Below, piece after piece: positions 35,298-39,926 of a stretch of 64,000 nt of DNA. The notes under the pieces are model-generated. The model was not told the origin of the DNA. It was given only the letters and a program-made list of their open reading frames with translations, and ran no database searches. How positions within the stretch are numbered: position 1 is the stretch's first letter; the number at the start of each line of letters is the position of its first letter. Made by a program: the position numbers and the translations under genes. Origin of the DNA: Quadrisphaera sp. DSM 44207 (GTDB taxonomy: Bacteria > Actinomycetota > Actinomycetes > Actinomycetales > Quadrisphaeraceae); contig NZ_FNKA01000002.1 of NCBI RefSeq assembly GCF_900101335.1, positions 62,001 to 126,000 on the forward strand, read 5' to 3'.

Positions 35298-36014
35298 GTG
35301 GGCCGCTGGGAGGGCGGGCGCTCGAGCGGGTCGGTCTACCCCGACCGGCGCGAGGCCGGCCGGGTGCTGGCCGAGGCCGTGCGGGCCGCCGTCGGCGCCC
35401 CGCCGGGGGCGGCGGCCGGCTGCGCGGTGCTCGGGCTCCCGCGCGGCGGCGTGCCCGTGGCCGCGCCCGTGGCCGAGGCGCTCGGGGGCGACCTCGACGT
35501 CCTCGTGGTCCGCAAGCTCGGCGTCCCCGAGCAGCCGGAGCTCGCCATGGGCGCGGTCGCCGTCGTCGGCTCCGCGCTCGAGACCGTGCGCAACGAGCGG
35601 GTCCTCGCCCACCTGGGCATCGCGCCGGAGGTCTTCGAGGCCGTCCGCGACCGCGAGGTCGCCGAGCTGGGCCGCCGCGAGGCCGCCTACCGGGCGGGCC
35701 GCGCGGCGGTGCCCGTGCGCGGGCGCACCGTGGTGCTCGTCGATGACGGCCTGGCCACCGGTGCCACGGTGCGCGCCGCCGTGGCCGCGGTGCGCCGCCA
35801 GGGCCCCTCCCGCGTGGTCGTCGCCGTCCCCGTCGGGTCGGCGCGCACCTGCGAGGCGCTCGCCGAGGTCGCCGACGAGGTGGTCTGCCCCTGGACGCCC
35901 GAGCCGTTCGCCGCCGTGGGGCAGGCGTACCGCGACTTCGCCGCGGTCCCGGACGAGCGGGTGCGGGAGCTGCTCAGCGGTGCCAGCGGCTCCCGCCGGC
36001 GCGCTTGGCCGTGA
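35298..36014 (+). CDS. Phosphoribosyltransferase-family protein
   Basis: 238 residues from a GTG at 35298. The PRPP-binding loop is clear: TVVLVDDGLATGATVRAA. The N-terminal part GLPRGGVPVAAPVAEALG and VVRKLGVPEQPELAMGA is that of a widespread group of predicted phosphoribosyltransferases with no proven substrate. It starts 16 bp after the LysM gene. The last 41 bp overlap the convergent c-di-GMP gene. Confidence 0.87.
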   Translation: MGRWEGGRSSGSVYPDRREAGRVLAEAVRAAVGAPPGAAAGCAVLGLPRGGVPVAAPVAEALGGDLDVLVVRKLGVPEQPELAMGAVAVVGSALETVRNERVLAHLGIAPEVFEAVRDREVAELGRREAAYRAGRAAVPVRGRTVVLVDDGLATGATVRAAVAAVRRQGPSRVVVAVPVGSARTCEALAEVADEVVCPWTPEPFAAVGQAYRDFAAVPDERVRELLSGASGSRRRAWP

Positions 36015-38250
36015 ACATCGCCTCGTCCGCGCGCCGCAGCAGCCCGCCGAGGCCGTCCGCGGGCAGCTGCCCGTCGGGGTCCCGGCCGTAGAGGGCCACG
36101 CCGATGCTGGCGCCGAGGGGCAGGGAGCGCCCGTCGACGGTGAACGGCTCCGCGAGGGCGGAGACCAGCCGCTGCGCCGCCGCCTCGGCGAGCGCCCCCG
36201 CCTCCCCGGTCGGCAGGTCGGGCAGGACGAGGAGGAACTCGTCGCCGCCCTGGCGGCCGATCACGTCGCCGATGCGCACGGCCCCGCGCAGGCGCTGGGC
36301 CGCGGCGCGCAGCACCGCGTCGCCCTCGACGTGCCCGTGCCGGTCGTTGACGCCCTTGAAGCCGTCGAGATCGACGTACAGCACCGCCACGGCGGTGCCC
36401 TCCTCGTCGTGCACCCGGGCCAGGCCGCTCGCGGCGGCCTCGTGCAGCGCCGTGCGGTTGGGCAGGCCGGTCAGCGCGTCGGTGGTCGCCAGCTGCAGGG
36501 CGCGCTGCTCGGCCTCGACGCGGCGGGTCACGTCGTGCTGGACGGCGATGTAGTGCGTCAGCTCCCCGTGGTCGTCGCGCACGGGGCTCAGGTGCAGCTC
36601 GTTCCACCACGGGTGGCCGTCGCGGCGGTAGTTGCGCAGCGTCTCGGTGCACTCGCGACCGGCGTCGATGGCCTCGCGGATGCGGGCGACGACGACGGGG
36701 TCGCTGCCCGGGCCCTGCAGCACGCGGCAGTTGCGCCCGATGACGTCGTCCGAGCGGTACCCCGTGAGCGCCTCGAAGGCCGGGTTGACCCACACGAGGG
36801 GCTGGTGGGGGTGCTTGACGTCCGCGACGCAGACCCCGGTGATGGTGGCCTCGAGCGCCTGGTGCAGCAGGTCCTGGCTCATCGCCCGGGTCAGCACCGG
36901 TTCGGTGAGCACGTCGGACGGCGACGGCTCGGGCGCCACGCGGGCGAGCAGGCCGCGCGCGACGGCGACGGCCACGTCCCGGTCGTGGGAGAGGACGAAG
37001 TCGAAGCGGCGCTCCATGTCCGGGCCGCTGTCGCCGAGGTCGCGCGCGACGAGCACGCCGGCGAAGTCGGGGGTCAGGACGACGACGTCCCACTCGCCCA
37101 GCACCGGGTCGCCCTCGGGGATCTGCGCGCCGCGCACGCCGCGGATCGGCTCCAGCGGCAGGCCCTCGCCGATGGCGGCCACGAGCGAGAGGCGCTCGGC
37201 CAGGCGGGCGTAGCGCTTCTGCGTCGGCTCCGTGAAGTGCTTGGCGTACTGGAAGGTGGCGAGCAGGAGCGCGGACTCCCCGCCCTCCAGCGCCTTGGCC
37301 TCCAGGTGCTTGGAGACCTCGACGAGCAGGCGCTTGTTGCCCGGGCGCGGCGTGCGCACGGCCTGCGCCGTCAGGTACGGGCTCTGCGCCGGCGGGGCCA
37401 GCGGCGCCACGCCGAGGGTGATGCCGCGCCCGCCCAGCTCGGGCAGGGCCGCCGGCAGCGGCTCGGGCCGCCCGAACAGCCAGCCCTGCCCCAGGGTGGC
37501 GCCCATGGTCCGGGCCATGAGCACGTGCCGCTCGGTCTCGATGCCCTCGGCGAGCAGCACCGCGCCGGTGCGCTCGGCCTGCGCCGTGACGGCGTTCATC
37601 ACCGCGGCCGCGTGGCGGCCGGGCCGCTCCTGCACGAGGGCGAGGTCGAGCTTGATGACGTCGGGGGAGACCAGGGGCAGCAGCGCCAGGGACGCCGGCT
37701 CGGCGCCGACGTCGTCCAGGGCGATGGCCCAGCCGAGGGCGCGGGCCTGCTCCACGACGCGCAGCACCTGCGCGGGACGGCGGGTCAGGGCGCGCTCGGT
37801 CAGCTCCAGGACCACGGGCACGCCGTGCAGCTCCTCGGGGACGTCGAGGTCTGCGACGCTGTCCGGCTCGGTGTTGAGGAACAGGTGGTAGGGCGCGCTC
37901 AGGCCGCCGACCGCCGCGGTCCGCAGGGCGGCGGCGCGGCACGCGACGTCCAGCTCCACGAGCAGCCCGTCGCGGCGGGCGGCGGAGAAGAGGACGTCGG
38001 GGCGCTCGAGCACCGTGCCCGCCGGGCCGCGCGTGAGCGCCTCGAAGGCGACGACGCGCCGGTCCTCGAGGGAGACGATGGGCTGGAAGACCGTGCGCAG
38101 CGCCCCGGCGTCGACGATCTCGCGCACGGAGGTCAGCGCGTCCGCGGGACGGGACGGTGCGCCCGCACCGCGGGCAGCGGACGTCGCGAACGGCGCGAAC
38201 GGCGCGAGGAGCAGGGCGGCACCGGGGTCACGGCCGGCAGCATTCACCAT
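35974..38250 (-). CDS. EAL-DICT-LOV-GGDEF c-di-GMP enzyme, probable blue-light sensor
   Basis: 758 residues from the ATG at 38250. EAL phosphodiesterase domain (about 48-268) with E70-A71-L72, Asn126, Glu149/Glu152, Asp179-Asp180, Lys200, Glu235 and Gln255 kept. DICT domain (about 303-445, PGNKRLLVEVSKHLEAKALE). PAS domain of LOV type (about 465-580) with flavin-contact motif GRNCRVLQG (Cys508) and NYRRDGHPWWNELHLSPVRD. GGDEF cyclase (about 585-750) with intact GGDEF at 668-672. The protein could both make and break c-di-GMP, gated by light or redox through the flavin. Domain order with EAL first is unusual. Confidence 0.92.
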   Translation of the reverse strand: MVNAAGRDPGAALLLAPFAPFATSAARGAGAPSRPADALTSVREIVDAGALRTVFQPIVSLEDRRVVAFEALTRGPAGTVLERPDVLFSAARRDGLLVELDVACRAAALRTAAVGGLSAPYHLFLNTEPDSVADLDVPEELHGVPVVLELTERALTRRPAQVLRVVEQARALGWAIALDDVGAEPASLALLPLVSPDVIKLDLALVQERPGRHAAAVMNAVTAQAERTGAVLLAEGIETERHVLMARTMGATLGQGWLFGRPEPLPAALPELGGRGITLGVAPLAPPAQSPYLTAQAVRTPRPGNKRLLVEVSKHLEAKALEGGESALLLATFQYAKHFTEPTQKRYARLAERLSLVAAIGEGLPLEPIRGVRGAQIPEGDPVLGEWDVVVLTPDFAGVLVARDLGDSGPDMERRFDFVLSHDRDVAVAVARGLLARVAPEPSPSDVLTEPVLTRAMSQDLLHQALEATITGVCVADVKHPHQPLVWVNPAFEALTGYRSDDVIGRNCRVLQGPGSDPVVVARIREAIDAGRECTETLRNYRRDGHPWWNELHLSPVRDDHGELTHYIAVQHDVTRRVEAEQRALQLATTDALTGLPNRTALHEAAASGLARVHDEEGTAVAVLYVDLDGFKGVNDRHGHVEGDAVLRAAAQRLRGAVRIGDVIGRQGGDEFLLVLPDLPTGEAGALAEAAAQRLVSALAEPFTVDGRSLPLGASIGVALYGRDPDGQLPADGLGGLLRRADEAMFTAKRAGGSRWHR

Positions 38251-38420: not shown

Positions 38421-39926
38421 ATGACCGTCTCCCCGCCGCCGTCCCCGCCGTCCCCGTCCTCCCCGGCGGGCCCGCCTCTGGCCGGTCCGGCTCCGCGGGC
38501 CGCACCCGTGCGGGGCGTGGAGCTCAACGGCATCAACGTCATCGCCGAGGCCGAGCGCAGGGGCCGCCCCCGCGACCTGTTCTGGCCGTGGTTCGCGGCC
38601 AACGTCTCCGTCTTCGGCGTCAGCTACGGCTCCTTCCTCCTCGGCTTCGGCATCTCCTTCGCCCAGGCCGTGCTCGCCGCGGTCGTCGGCGCGGTCGCCT
38701 CGTTCCTGCTGTGCGGCCTCGTGGCGCTCGGCGGCAAGCGCGCCTCGGCGCCGACCATGGTGATCAGCCGCGCGGCCTTCGGCGTGAACGGCAACAAGCT
38801 GCCCGCGGCCGTCTCCTGGGTGCTCACCGTCGGCTGGGAGACGGTGCTGGTCTCCCTCGCGACCCTGGCGACCGCGACGGTCCTGCGCGAGCTCGGCTGG
38901 GGCGGGGGGACGGCGACCAGCGCCGTCGCCCTGCTCGTCGTCGCCGCCCTCGTGGTCGGGGCCGGGGTCCTCGGCTTCGACGCCATCATGCGCCTGCAGA
39001 CGGGGATCACGGTCGTCACCGCGGCGCTCACGGTCGTCTACGTCGTCCTCGTGCGCGACGAGATCGACTGGGACGCCGTCGCGGCCCTGCCGAGCGGGTC
39101 CGCGCAGGCGCTCCTGGGCGCCACCGTCCTCGCCATGACCGGCTTCGGGCTGGGGTGGGTCAACGTCGCCGCCGACTACTCCCGCTACCTGCCGCGCCGC
39201 TCCTCCGGCGCCGGGGTCGTCGCCTGGACGACGCTGGGCGGCGCCCTGCCGCCGGTGCTCCTCGTGGTCCTCGGGCTGCTGCTCGCCGGCTCCGACCCGG
39301 ACCTGTCCGCCGCCATCGCCGCGGACCCGGTCGGCGCGCTGACCACCGTGCTGCCGACGTGGTTCCTGGTCCCCTTCGCGCTCGTCGCCGTGCTCGCCCT
39401 CGTCGGCGGCGCCGTGCTCGACGTCTACTCCTCGGGCCTGGCGCTGCTCAGCCTCGGCCTGCCCGCCCCGCGCTGGGTCGCGGCGCTCGTCGACGGCGCG
39501 CTCATGGTCGCCGGCACCGTCTTCGTCGTCTTCGTCGCGGAGAGCTTCTTCGTGCAGTTCCAGGGCTTCCTCATCACCCTGGGCGCGCCGATCGCGGCCT
39601 GGTGCGGCGTCCTCGTCGCCGACCTGCTGCTGCGCCGCCGCGACTACGCCGAGGCCGACCTGTACGACCCGCGCGGGCGCTACGGCTCGGTCTCCTGGCC
39701 GGCCGTCGGGCTCGTCGTCCTCGGCGCGGTGGTCGGCTGGGGGCTGGTGACGAACGGGCTGGCCGGGTGGCTGACGTGGCAGGGGTACCTGCTCGGCCCG
39801 CTCGGCGGGCGCGAGGGCGCCTGGGCCTTCGCCAACCTCGGCATCCTCGCCGCCCTGCTCATCGGCTTCGCCGGCCACCTCCTCCTCGGCCGCCGCGCCG
39901 TGCGGGCCCAGGACGCCGCGCCGTGA
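38421..39926 (+). CDS. NCS1-type purine/cytosine/thiamine permease
   Basis: 501 residues, about twelve membrane helices. The N-terminal motif GVELNGINVIAE is followed by SYGSFLLGFGISFAQAVLAA, APTMVISRAAFGVNGNKLPA and GWVNVAADYSRYLPR, the signature of the nucleobase:cation symporter 1 family (CodB, purines, allantoin, hydroxymethylpyrimidine). It is coupled by GTGA to a cysteine hydrolase, which suggests uptake and hydrolysis of an amide or ureide such as a pyrimidine breakdown product (inference). Confidence 0.9.
   Translation: MTVSPPPSPPSPSSPAGPPLAGPAPRAAPVRGVELNGINVIAEAERRGRPRDLFWPWFAANVSVFGVSYGSFLLGFGISFAQAVLAAVVGAVASFLLCGLVALGGKRASAPTMVISRAAFGVNGNKLPAAVSWVLTVGWETVLVSLATLATATVLRELGWGGGTATSAVALLVVAALVVGAGVLGFDAIMRLQTGITVVTAALTVVYVVLVRDEIDWDAVAALPSGSAQALLGATVLAMTGFGLGWVNVAADYSRYLPRRSSGAGVVAWTTLGGALPPVLLVVLGLLLAGSDPDLSAAIAADPVGALTTVLPTWFLVPFALVAVLALVGGAVLDVYSSGLALLSLGLPAPRWVAALVDGALMVAGTVFVVFVAESFFVQFQGFLITLGAPIAAWCGVLVADLLLRRRDYAEADLYDPRGRYGSVSWPAVGLVVLGAVVGWGLVTNGLAGWLTWQGYLLGPLGGREGAWAFANLGILAALLIGFAGHLLLGRRAVRAQDAAP

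Follow-up and report, generated by a model that had tools for sequence, protein, structure and literature searches.

How might a single protein use light when it carries a cyclic dimeric guanosine monophosphate (c-di-GMP) phosphodiesterase domain at one end, a diguanylate cyclase domain at the other, and a LOV and a DICT domain between them? This question is raised by a gene of the architecture EAL-DICT-LOV-GGDEF in the 64,000-nucleotide stretch of Quadrisphaera sp. DSM 44207 that was analysed here (contig NZ_FNKA01000002.1, positions 62,001 to 126,000; hereafter the window). We consider it fairly probable that its product is a light-sensing c-di-GMP enzyme in which the EAL phosphodiesterase is the constant output and the cyclase an optional one, with coupling through the LOV-GGDEF linker and through DICT, the latter being a probable second sensor. 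New here are the presence of 21- and 35-residue linker classes in this family, a change in loop 6 of the EAL domain that accompanies DICT, and a fold match for DICT; the last two of these are the most valuable leads.

Domain layout and the LOV pocket

The first-pass annotation had assigned such a protein to positions 35974 to 38250 without naming the strand. The interval does hold it, on the minus strand, with an ATG at 38250 and a stop codon ending at 35974, and the product is 758 amino acids (aa) long. The proposed domain order is borne out by Pfam, in which EAL, PAS_9 and GGDEF are matched above the curated cut-offs and DICT (PF10069) reaches 37.8 bits against a cut-off of 23.8 (Table 1). 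A chance open frame is ruled out by the E-values of these domains and by the existence of relatives. The start codon is uncertain, as the upstream frame stays open to a GTG at 38505. The AlphaFold model of the full-length protein, built with an alignment of 81 rows, has a mean predicted local distance difference test (pLDDT) value of 88.8 and a predicted template modelling (pTM) score of 0.60. Values below 50 are restricted to residues 1-32 and 445-457, and the first four blocks of ten residues average 34, 31, 35 and 65. The second of these stretches forms a hinge, around which the spacing from R437 to P484 ranges from 48 to 95 across the family alignment. After LOV, a helix (residues 575-589) runs into GGDEF. 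Foldseek with the whole model returns the LOV-activated cyclase 8c05 first, and among solved structures this entry is also closest in sequence to the LOV-GGDEF half.

That the PAS-type domain is a true LOV module with Cys508, as first suggested, is confirmed by its intact pocket, by alignment to solved LOV domains and by the model. Cys508 lies within GRNCRVLQG, and the pocket residues N489, R509, Q512, N540, N550 and Q571 are all present, each being kept in 80 or 81 of the 81 aligned rows. All seven positions are intact in 80 rows, the window protein included, and the sole row without the cysteine has lost further pocket residues as well. Against four solved LOV domains (9vf7, 6hmj, 9vf8 and 7a6p), the LOV stretch gives a gap-free alignment, and the modelled domain fits 9vf7 at 0.9 Å over 130 columns. 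An ordinary PAS domain was considered and is ruled out by these intact, conserved residues. A second LOV protein of the same genome (L192, G000:C4:155636-156004; L numbers are our labels for loci) has a SpoIIE-type phosphatase domain and the motif GRNCRFLQ. In genomes of the Kineococcus family, second copies (L149 and L150) consist of EAL-DICT and a degenerate LOV with GRSARHLDG, from which the photoactive cysteine is gone; by its sequence, L112 is a locus of the L149 gene.

Table 1. Features of the EAL-DICT-LOV-GGDEF gene, with positions in the window
Feature	Positions	Strand	Evidence
Whole gene, 758 aa	35974..38250	-	Pfam domains, AlphaFold model, relatives
Poorly ordered N-terminal tail (residues 1-40) with uncertain start codon	38131..38250	-	pLDDT, upstream open frame
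EAL phosphodiesterase domain, residues 43-262	37465..38124	-	Pfam EAL 43-262 (E 3e-37), residue conservation
Altered EAL loop 6, residues 179-188 (DDVGAEPASL)	37687..37716	-	alignment comparison
DICT domain (residues about 290-440), phospholipase-D-like fold predicted, HKD motif absent	36931..37383	-	Pfam DICT 304-404 (E 2e-9), models
Disordered DICT-LOV hinge, residues 445-457	36880..36918	-	pLDDT <50, variable spacing
LOV domain, residues 459-575	36526..36876	-	Pfam PAS_9 481-575 (E 1e-22), solved-LOV alignments, model
Cys508, predicted flavin-adduct cysteine	36727..36729	-	kept in 80/81 aligned rows
Short-class LOV-GGDEF linker of 21 residues, D573 (in DVT) to L593 (in DxLT)	36472..36534	-	alignment, compared with passages of PMC10396304
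GGDEF diguanylate cyclase domain, residues 588-754, RxxD 659-662, GGDEF 668-672	35989..36489	-	Pfam GGDEF 588-754 (E 6e-38), alignment

What the family keeps and what varies

The EAL-DICT-LOV-GGDEF order, singled out at first as the reverse of most such proteins, is that of a conserved Actinomycetota family and is not rare, and the window protein is an early branch of this widespread actinobacterial family. In a scan of named genomes, 552 stretches carry a search pattern and 276 of them encode a relative at a tblastn E ≤ 1e-3; the best 80 of these 276 were aligned with the window protein to give the 81 rows to which residue counts refer. They come largely from Geodermatophilaceae and from Kineococcus, Quadrisphaera and Pseudokineococcus, and include Blastococcus, Geodermatophilus, Modestobacter, Klenkia, Goekera, Cellulomonas, Nocardioides, Motilibacter, others and some metagenome-assembled genomes. 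A second alignment holds the window protein and 25 full-length relatives from related genomes, 43-53 % identical, and all four domains are matched by Pfam in 26 of its 26 rows; the two collections overlap, so that nine genes are present twice in their union. L121 represents the window gene itself in cut form. Among 198 related genomes, 115 match the protein somewhere, many of the matches being confined to LOV or GGDEF. Some record titles look doubtful, as a row named 'Streptomyces sp. NP160' (L078) groups with Quadrisphaera and two contigs of one Melainabacteria metagenome-assembled genome (L058 and L102) group with Actinomycetota. No publication was found that names the 'DICT domain' together with LOV; most subscription papers lay outside this search, and a published account of the architecture may therefore exist elsewhere. 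The only paper of this search to contain the words LOV, EAL, GGDEF and DICT is the review PMC8846402, and its available passages do not describe this architecture.

The two enzymatic ends of the protein are retained to different degrees. In EAL, 79 of the 81 rows preserve all nine positions compared. The GGDEF domain is held by 76 of the best 80 relatives and absent from four (4 of the 81 rows), and in the 77 rows that have it, the signature is intact in 62 and altered in 15, part of these changes being mild (for example, GGDEL or GGDAF). The four rows without GGDEF (L103, L105, L109 and L111) are all from Modestobacter; they keep LOV and the linker helix, which is followed by a short tail, and no GGDEF match was found within these loci. 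A quick tree built from the EAL-DICT part of 104 rows requires at least 5 changes of GGDEF state when counted over all rows; a tabulation on the same tree that pits two groups against each other alone gives 1 change each. Mean pairwise identity over 77 rows falls from EAL (0.757) through DICT (0.735) and LOV (0.661) to GGDEF (0.542). This order and the retention pattern mark EAL-DICT-LOV as the family's constant core; therefore, the main output would probably be the phosphodiesterase, with the cyclase as an optional addition. The constant core argues that light may be read out on the EAL side.

Two groups of rows stand apart in these counts. In a Blastococcus branch (L072, L075, L076, L079, L086, L094, L098, L104 and L108), GGDEF has become TRDSF, ARDSF or SHDSF, with EAL and LOV intact. 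The two rows without all nine EAL positions are L093 and L107, which were left out of the 104-row tree; here the coding stretch shifts frame within EAL, so that the EAL motif is found in a different frame, which could be an assembly error or a real frameshift.

The cyclase half of the window protein has the GGDEF motif, the RxxD inhibitory site (RIGD) and the residues D627, N635 and D644. For LOV-GGDEF proteins, passages of PMC10396304 describe two classes with linkers of 35 and 21 residues, 14 residues apart, measured from the D of DVT to the L of DxLT. According to these passages, long-linker proteins are caged in the dark and respond with a strong switch, and short-linker proteins show higher dark activity and moderate activation. 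The linker classes of the present family are the published ones: the linker has 35 residues in 96 of 101 rows and 21 in five, with no other length, and the window protein belongs to the rare short class. A LOV cysteine and a GGDEF domain were required for this count, by which L112 and the four GGDEF-less rows drop out of 106, and nine genes are counted twice. The cyclase LadC (MsLadC, PDB 8c05), as described in the same passages, resembles the window protein in having LOV followed by GGDEF, a linker of exactly 21 or 35 residues, and an RxxD site. In contrast to LadC, the window family has EAL and DICT ahead of LOV-GGDEF and can lose GGDEF, and it is not classed as LadC.

In the mechanism we propose, the protein would be cytosolic and would serve the c-di-GMP network as an enzyme and blue-light receptor in one. 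Upon blue light, flavin mononucleotide (FMN) in the LOV pocket would form an adduct with Cys508, as the intact pocket suggests. The change in LOV would be passed C-terminally to GGDEF, via the 21-residue helical linker, and N-terminally to the EAL phosphodiesterase, through DICT. Judging from the published LOV cyclases, the short-linker cyclase would have a notable dark activity with modest light activation, making it a tunable partner of the phosphodiesterase. DICT would probably act as a second sensor with a TrmB-like fold, which may bind a small ligand or set the dimer and may work together with the altered loop 6. The protein SL2 of Synechococcus elongatus, as presented in passages of PMC8846402, likewise has LOV and both c-di-GMP domains, and hydrolyzes c-di-GMP through EAL when activated by light; it differs in its domain order, in having no DICT as described there, and in its EAL loop 6. 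The family, which occurs with short linkers, with long linkers and without a cyclase, would also be a natural source of light-sensing proteins that combine the two c-di-GMP enzymes, suited to asking how a single LOV serves two outputs.

The DICT domain, loop 6 and the predicted phosphodiesterase

DICT had at first been described as known mainly from light-related signalling proteins. This was overstated, as in passages of the review PMC8846402 DICT is one of the putative sensory domains for which no physiological purpose can be discerned, and in passages of PMC8612252 its role in light is merely predicted. Another combination, the DICT-HD-GYP protein of Microcystis, has DICT in common with the window protein and no LOV as described in passages of PMC7063779. 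DICT was found in 68 of 396 genomes of the order, where many frames are about 430-480 aa long and most of those fetched are EAL-DICT alone; an EAL match is present in 13 of 15 regions fetched, the other two (L203 and L204) having DICT alone. L207, a duplicate of L199, was left out. The 3.2 Mb genome that contains the window has 23 GGDEF, 15 EAL and 2 DICT matches by Pfam, to which a purpose-made DICT profile adds a third, partial DICT. Two further DICT-related proteins in this genome are an EAL-DICT protein of 561 aa with a partial DICT (L145) and a DICT-GGDEF protein of 715 aa (L151).

The fold of DICT was approached through models. Modelled alone, the domain has a pLDDT of 91.5 and a pTM of 0.86. 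Structural re-comparison gives Z 10.4 to TrmB 2f5t (3.5 Å over 122 residues), Z 10.2 to TrmBL2 5box and Z 10.2 to NucT 6ehi, with Z ≥ 8 in 41 of the 50 entries listed; the tool's own note gives 7 to 8 as the typical best Z for models without a clear match. All 50 of the listed matches are ascribed to the phospholipase-D superfamily. A phospholipase-D-like fold is therefore likely for DICT, as far as the models go. The HxKx4D (HKD) motif was found in none of the 81 rows, and thus DICT is not a phospholipase D enzyme. The effector (sugar-binding) domain of TrmB is likewise not known to have this motif. TrmB and DICT differ in that no sequence relationship between them was detected with shallow profiles and in that DICT is fused to EAL, whereas the TrmB domain is fused to a DNA-binding domain. 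TrmB-like ligand binding by DICT is put forward as a hypothesis on the basis of these models. Among solved structures, the single DICT sequence has no match at E ≤ 1, and the DICT profile matches three unrelated chains only (E 0.32-0.53).

A number of observations weigh against the proposed reading of DICT and of the EAL output. The Foldseek search with DICT is weak (best E 0.0028), its first matches, at E 0.0028 to 0.02, being polyphosphate kinase, TrmB, SauUSI and phospholipase D, with unrelated folds lower down. Profile comparison by hhalign gives probabilities of 0.4 % for DICT-TrmB and 1.5 % for DICT-phospholipase D, obtained with shallow profiles of 3 and 2 sequences. In the EAL domain, loop 6 reads DDVGAEPASL in place of the usual DDFGTGYSSL, so that the second Gly and the aromatic-SS part are missing; given this loop, the EAL could be slow or merely bind c-di-GMP. 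Nine EAL-DICT proteins of one related family (L194-L199, L205, L206 and L209; about 430-455 aa) are without the EAL catalytic residues and keep DICT. Such catalytically dead proteins show that the pairing of DICT with EAL does not guarantee an enzyme. On the cyclase side, truncated LOV-GGDEF constructs with this short linker gave no light-regulated synthesis in passages of PMC10396304, which by analogy speaks against a light-driven cyclase in the window protein. The same result would favour light acting on EAL in such proteins.

The first-pass statement on catalytic residues being kept in both c-di-GMP domains thus holds in part. GGDEF and RIGD are present, as are all nine EAL positions (E70, N126, E149, E152, D179, D180, K200, E235 and Q255), which we take to be equivalent to the catalytic and metal-binding residues of RocR; the part that does not hold concerns loop 6. 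The 81-row alignment was gathered with patterns including DDVGA[DE], by which loop-6 conservation inside it is biased; the loop-6 comparison used hand-picked rows from protein and DICT-profile searches, not selected on the motif. In 15 DICT-linked EALs, including that of the window, the nine residues are all kept in 11, three have one Glu-to-Asp change and L143 is too short to score. The second Gly of loop 6 is replaced by an acidic residue in 12 of these 15 and by Val in two, and is kept in one (L208). It is kept in 20 of 20 DICT-less EALs, comprising all 13 of the window genome, three EAL-LOV-GGDEF proteins and four LOV-GGDEF-EAL proteins. The latter (L139-L142, from related genomes) have DDLG[AS]GYSSL in loop 6 and are 37-39 % identical to the window protein over LOV-GGDEF. 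The EAL-LOV-GGDEF proteins (L136-L138, with L032 marking the same place as L136) resemble the window protein in the EAL-first order, in the 21-residue linker and in having the LOV-GGDEF half nearest to it. They differ from it in having no DICT match (the Pfam scan covered L136), in GxGYSSL in loop 6, in an extra N-terminal region and in an EAL that is 38 % identical. The EAL-first order is, therefore, not specific to DICT proteins, and the loop-6 change goes with DICT and not with LOV or with domain order.

Since loop 6 is altered, phosphodiesterase activity is not to be presumed. Light might govern the cyclase alone, with the EAL serving as a c-di-GMP-binding or dimer-forming regulator. We regard this as unlikely, though less so than the other rivals. 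In its favour, the loop-6 residues are missing from most DICT-linked EALs, that of the window protein among them, and dead EAL-DICT proteins are known in a related family. Passages of PMC5845226 make loop 6 as well as the EAL motif essential for activity. Functional EALs with partly deviating signatures are mentioned in passages of PMC12900916. What tells against an EAL without enzymatic function is the retention pattern, as the nine positions are kept almost throughout while GGDEF is more often altered or missing, and a domain that only binds c-di-GMP would not obviously need such a pattern; moreover, the dead EAL-DICT proteins have lost these EAL residues entirely.

Returning to the light-sensing phosphodiesterase, the TrmB fold match and the DICT-tied loop-6 change together make the role of DICT testable. 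A more specific and tentative proposal, which we hold possible without thinking it probable, is that DICT is a catalytically dead phospholipase-D-fold metabolite sensor of the TrmB kind that co-evolved with loop 6, so that a ligand and blue light would jointly set c-di-GMP breakdown. If true, the family would be a dual-input switch, responding to metabolite and light, with opposing enzymes at both ends, and this would be the first molecular explanation for DICT.

Other rivals, the trees and the genomic context

A flavin-based redox sensor is improbable as the function of LOV. A proposed redox role, beside one in light, is reported for the flavin-related LOV-like PAS of RmcA in passages of PMC8846402, and the gene context does not point to photoreception either. 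The neighbouring frames of the window gene, encoding LexA, phosphoribosyltransferase, LysM, O-methyltransferase, LysR, FAD-oxidoreductase, cytosine/purine permease and isochorismatase-like proteins, occur in none of the loci of the 80 relatives (flanks up to 4 kb; the window protein itself, as control, found in 80 of 80). As none of these eight genes is kept near the relatives, the context offers no hint of light. However, the PAS of RmcA is without the cysteine, whereas here the cysteine and the pocket residues are present in 80 of 81 rows, and the only row lacking the cysteine is also short of other pocket residues.

The trees bear on a further, highly doubtful alternative, in which the protein is a chimera whose LOV-GGDEF half came from another protein than its EAL-DICT half. 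In a quick LOV-GGDEF tree calculated without the linker, the window protein joins the DICT-less EAL-LOV-GGDEF proteins (support 81), and with L049, L019 and L020 they form a branch of seven rows with a Shimodaira-Hasegawa-like approximate likelihood ratio test (SH-aLRT) support of 99. The fifth short-linker row, L100, lies elsewhere on a long branch and shifts between trees, and 2 changes of linker class suffice on this tree. When the linker is included, the window protein is weakly placed, yet outside a branch of 97 rows (support 99). On the EAL-DICT tree, it stands outside the main branch of 103 rows (support 99, with a long-branch warning), as do L049, L019 and L020. The two halves of the protein thus agree, and a chimera, considered for the likeness of LOV-GGDEF to DICT-less proteins, was rejected as both halves branch early; these trees are all quick reconstructions, long rows are involved, a long-branch warning applies and L100 is unstable.

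The gene and the convergent phosphoribosyltransferase frame share 41 bases (35974-36014) at their 3' ends.

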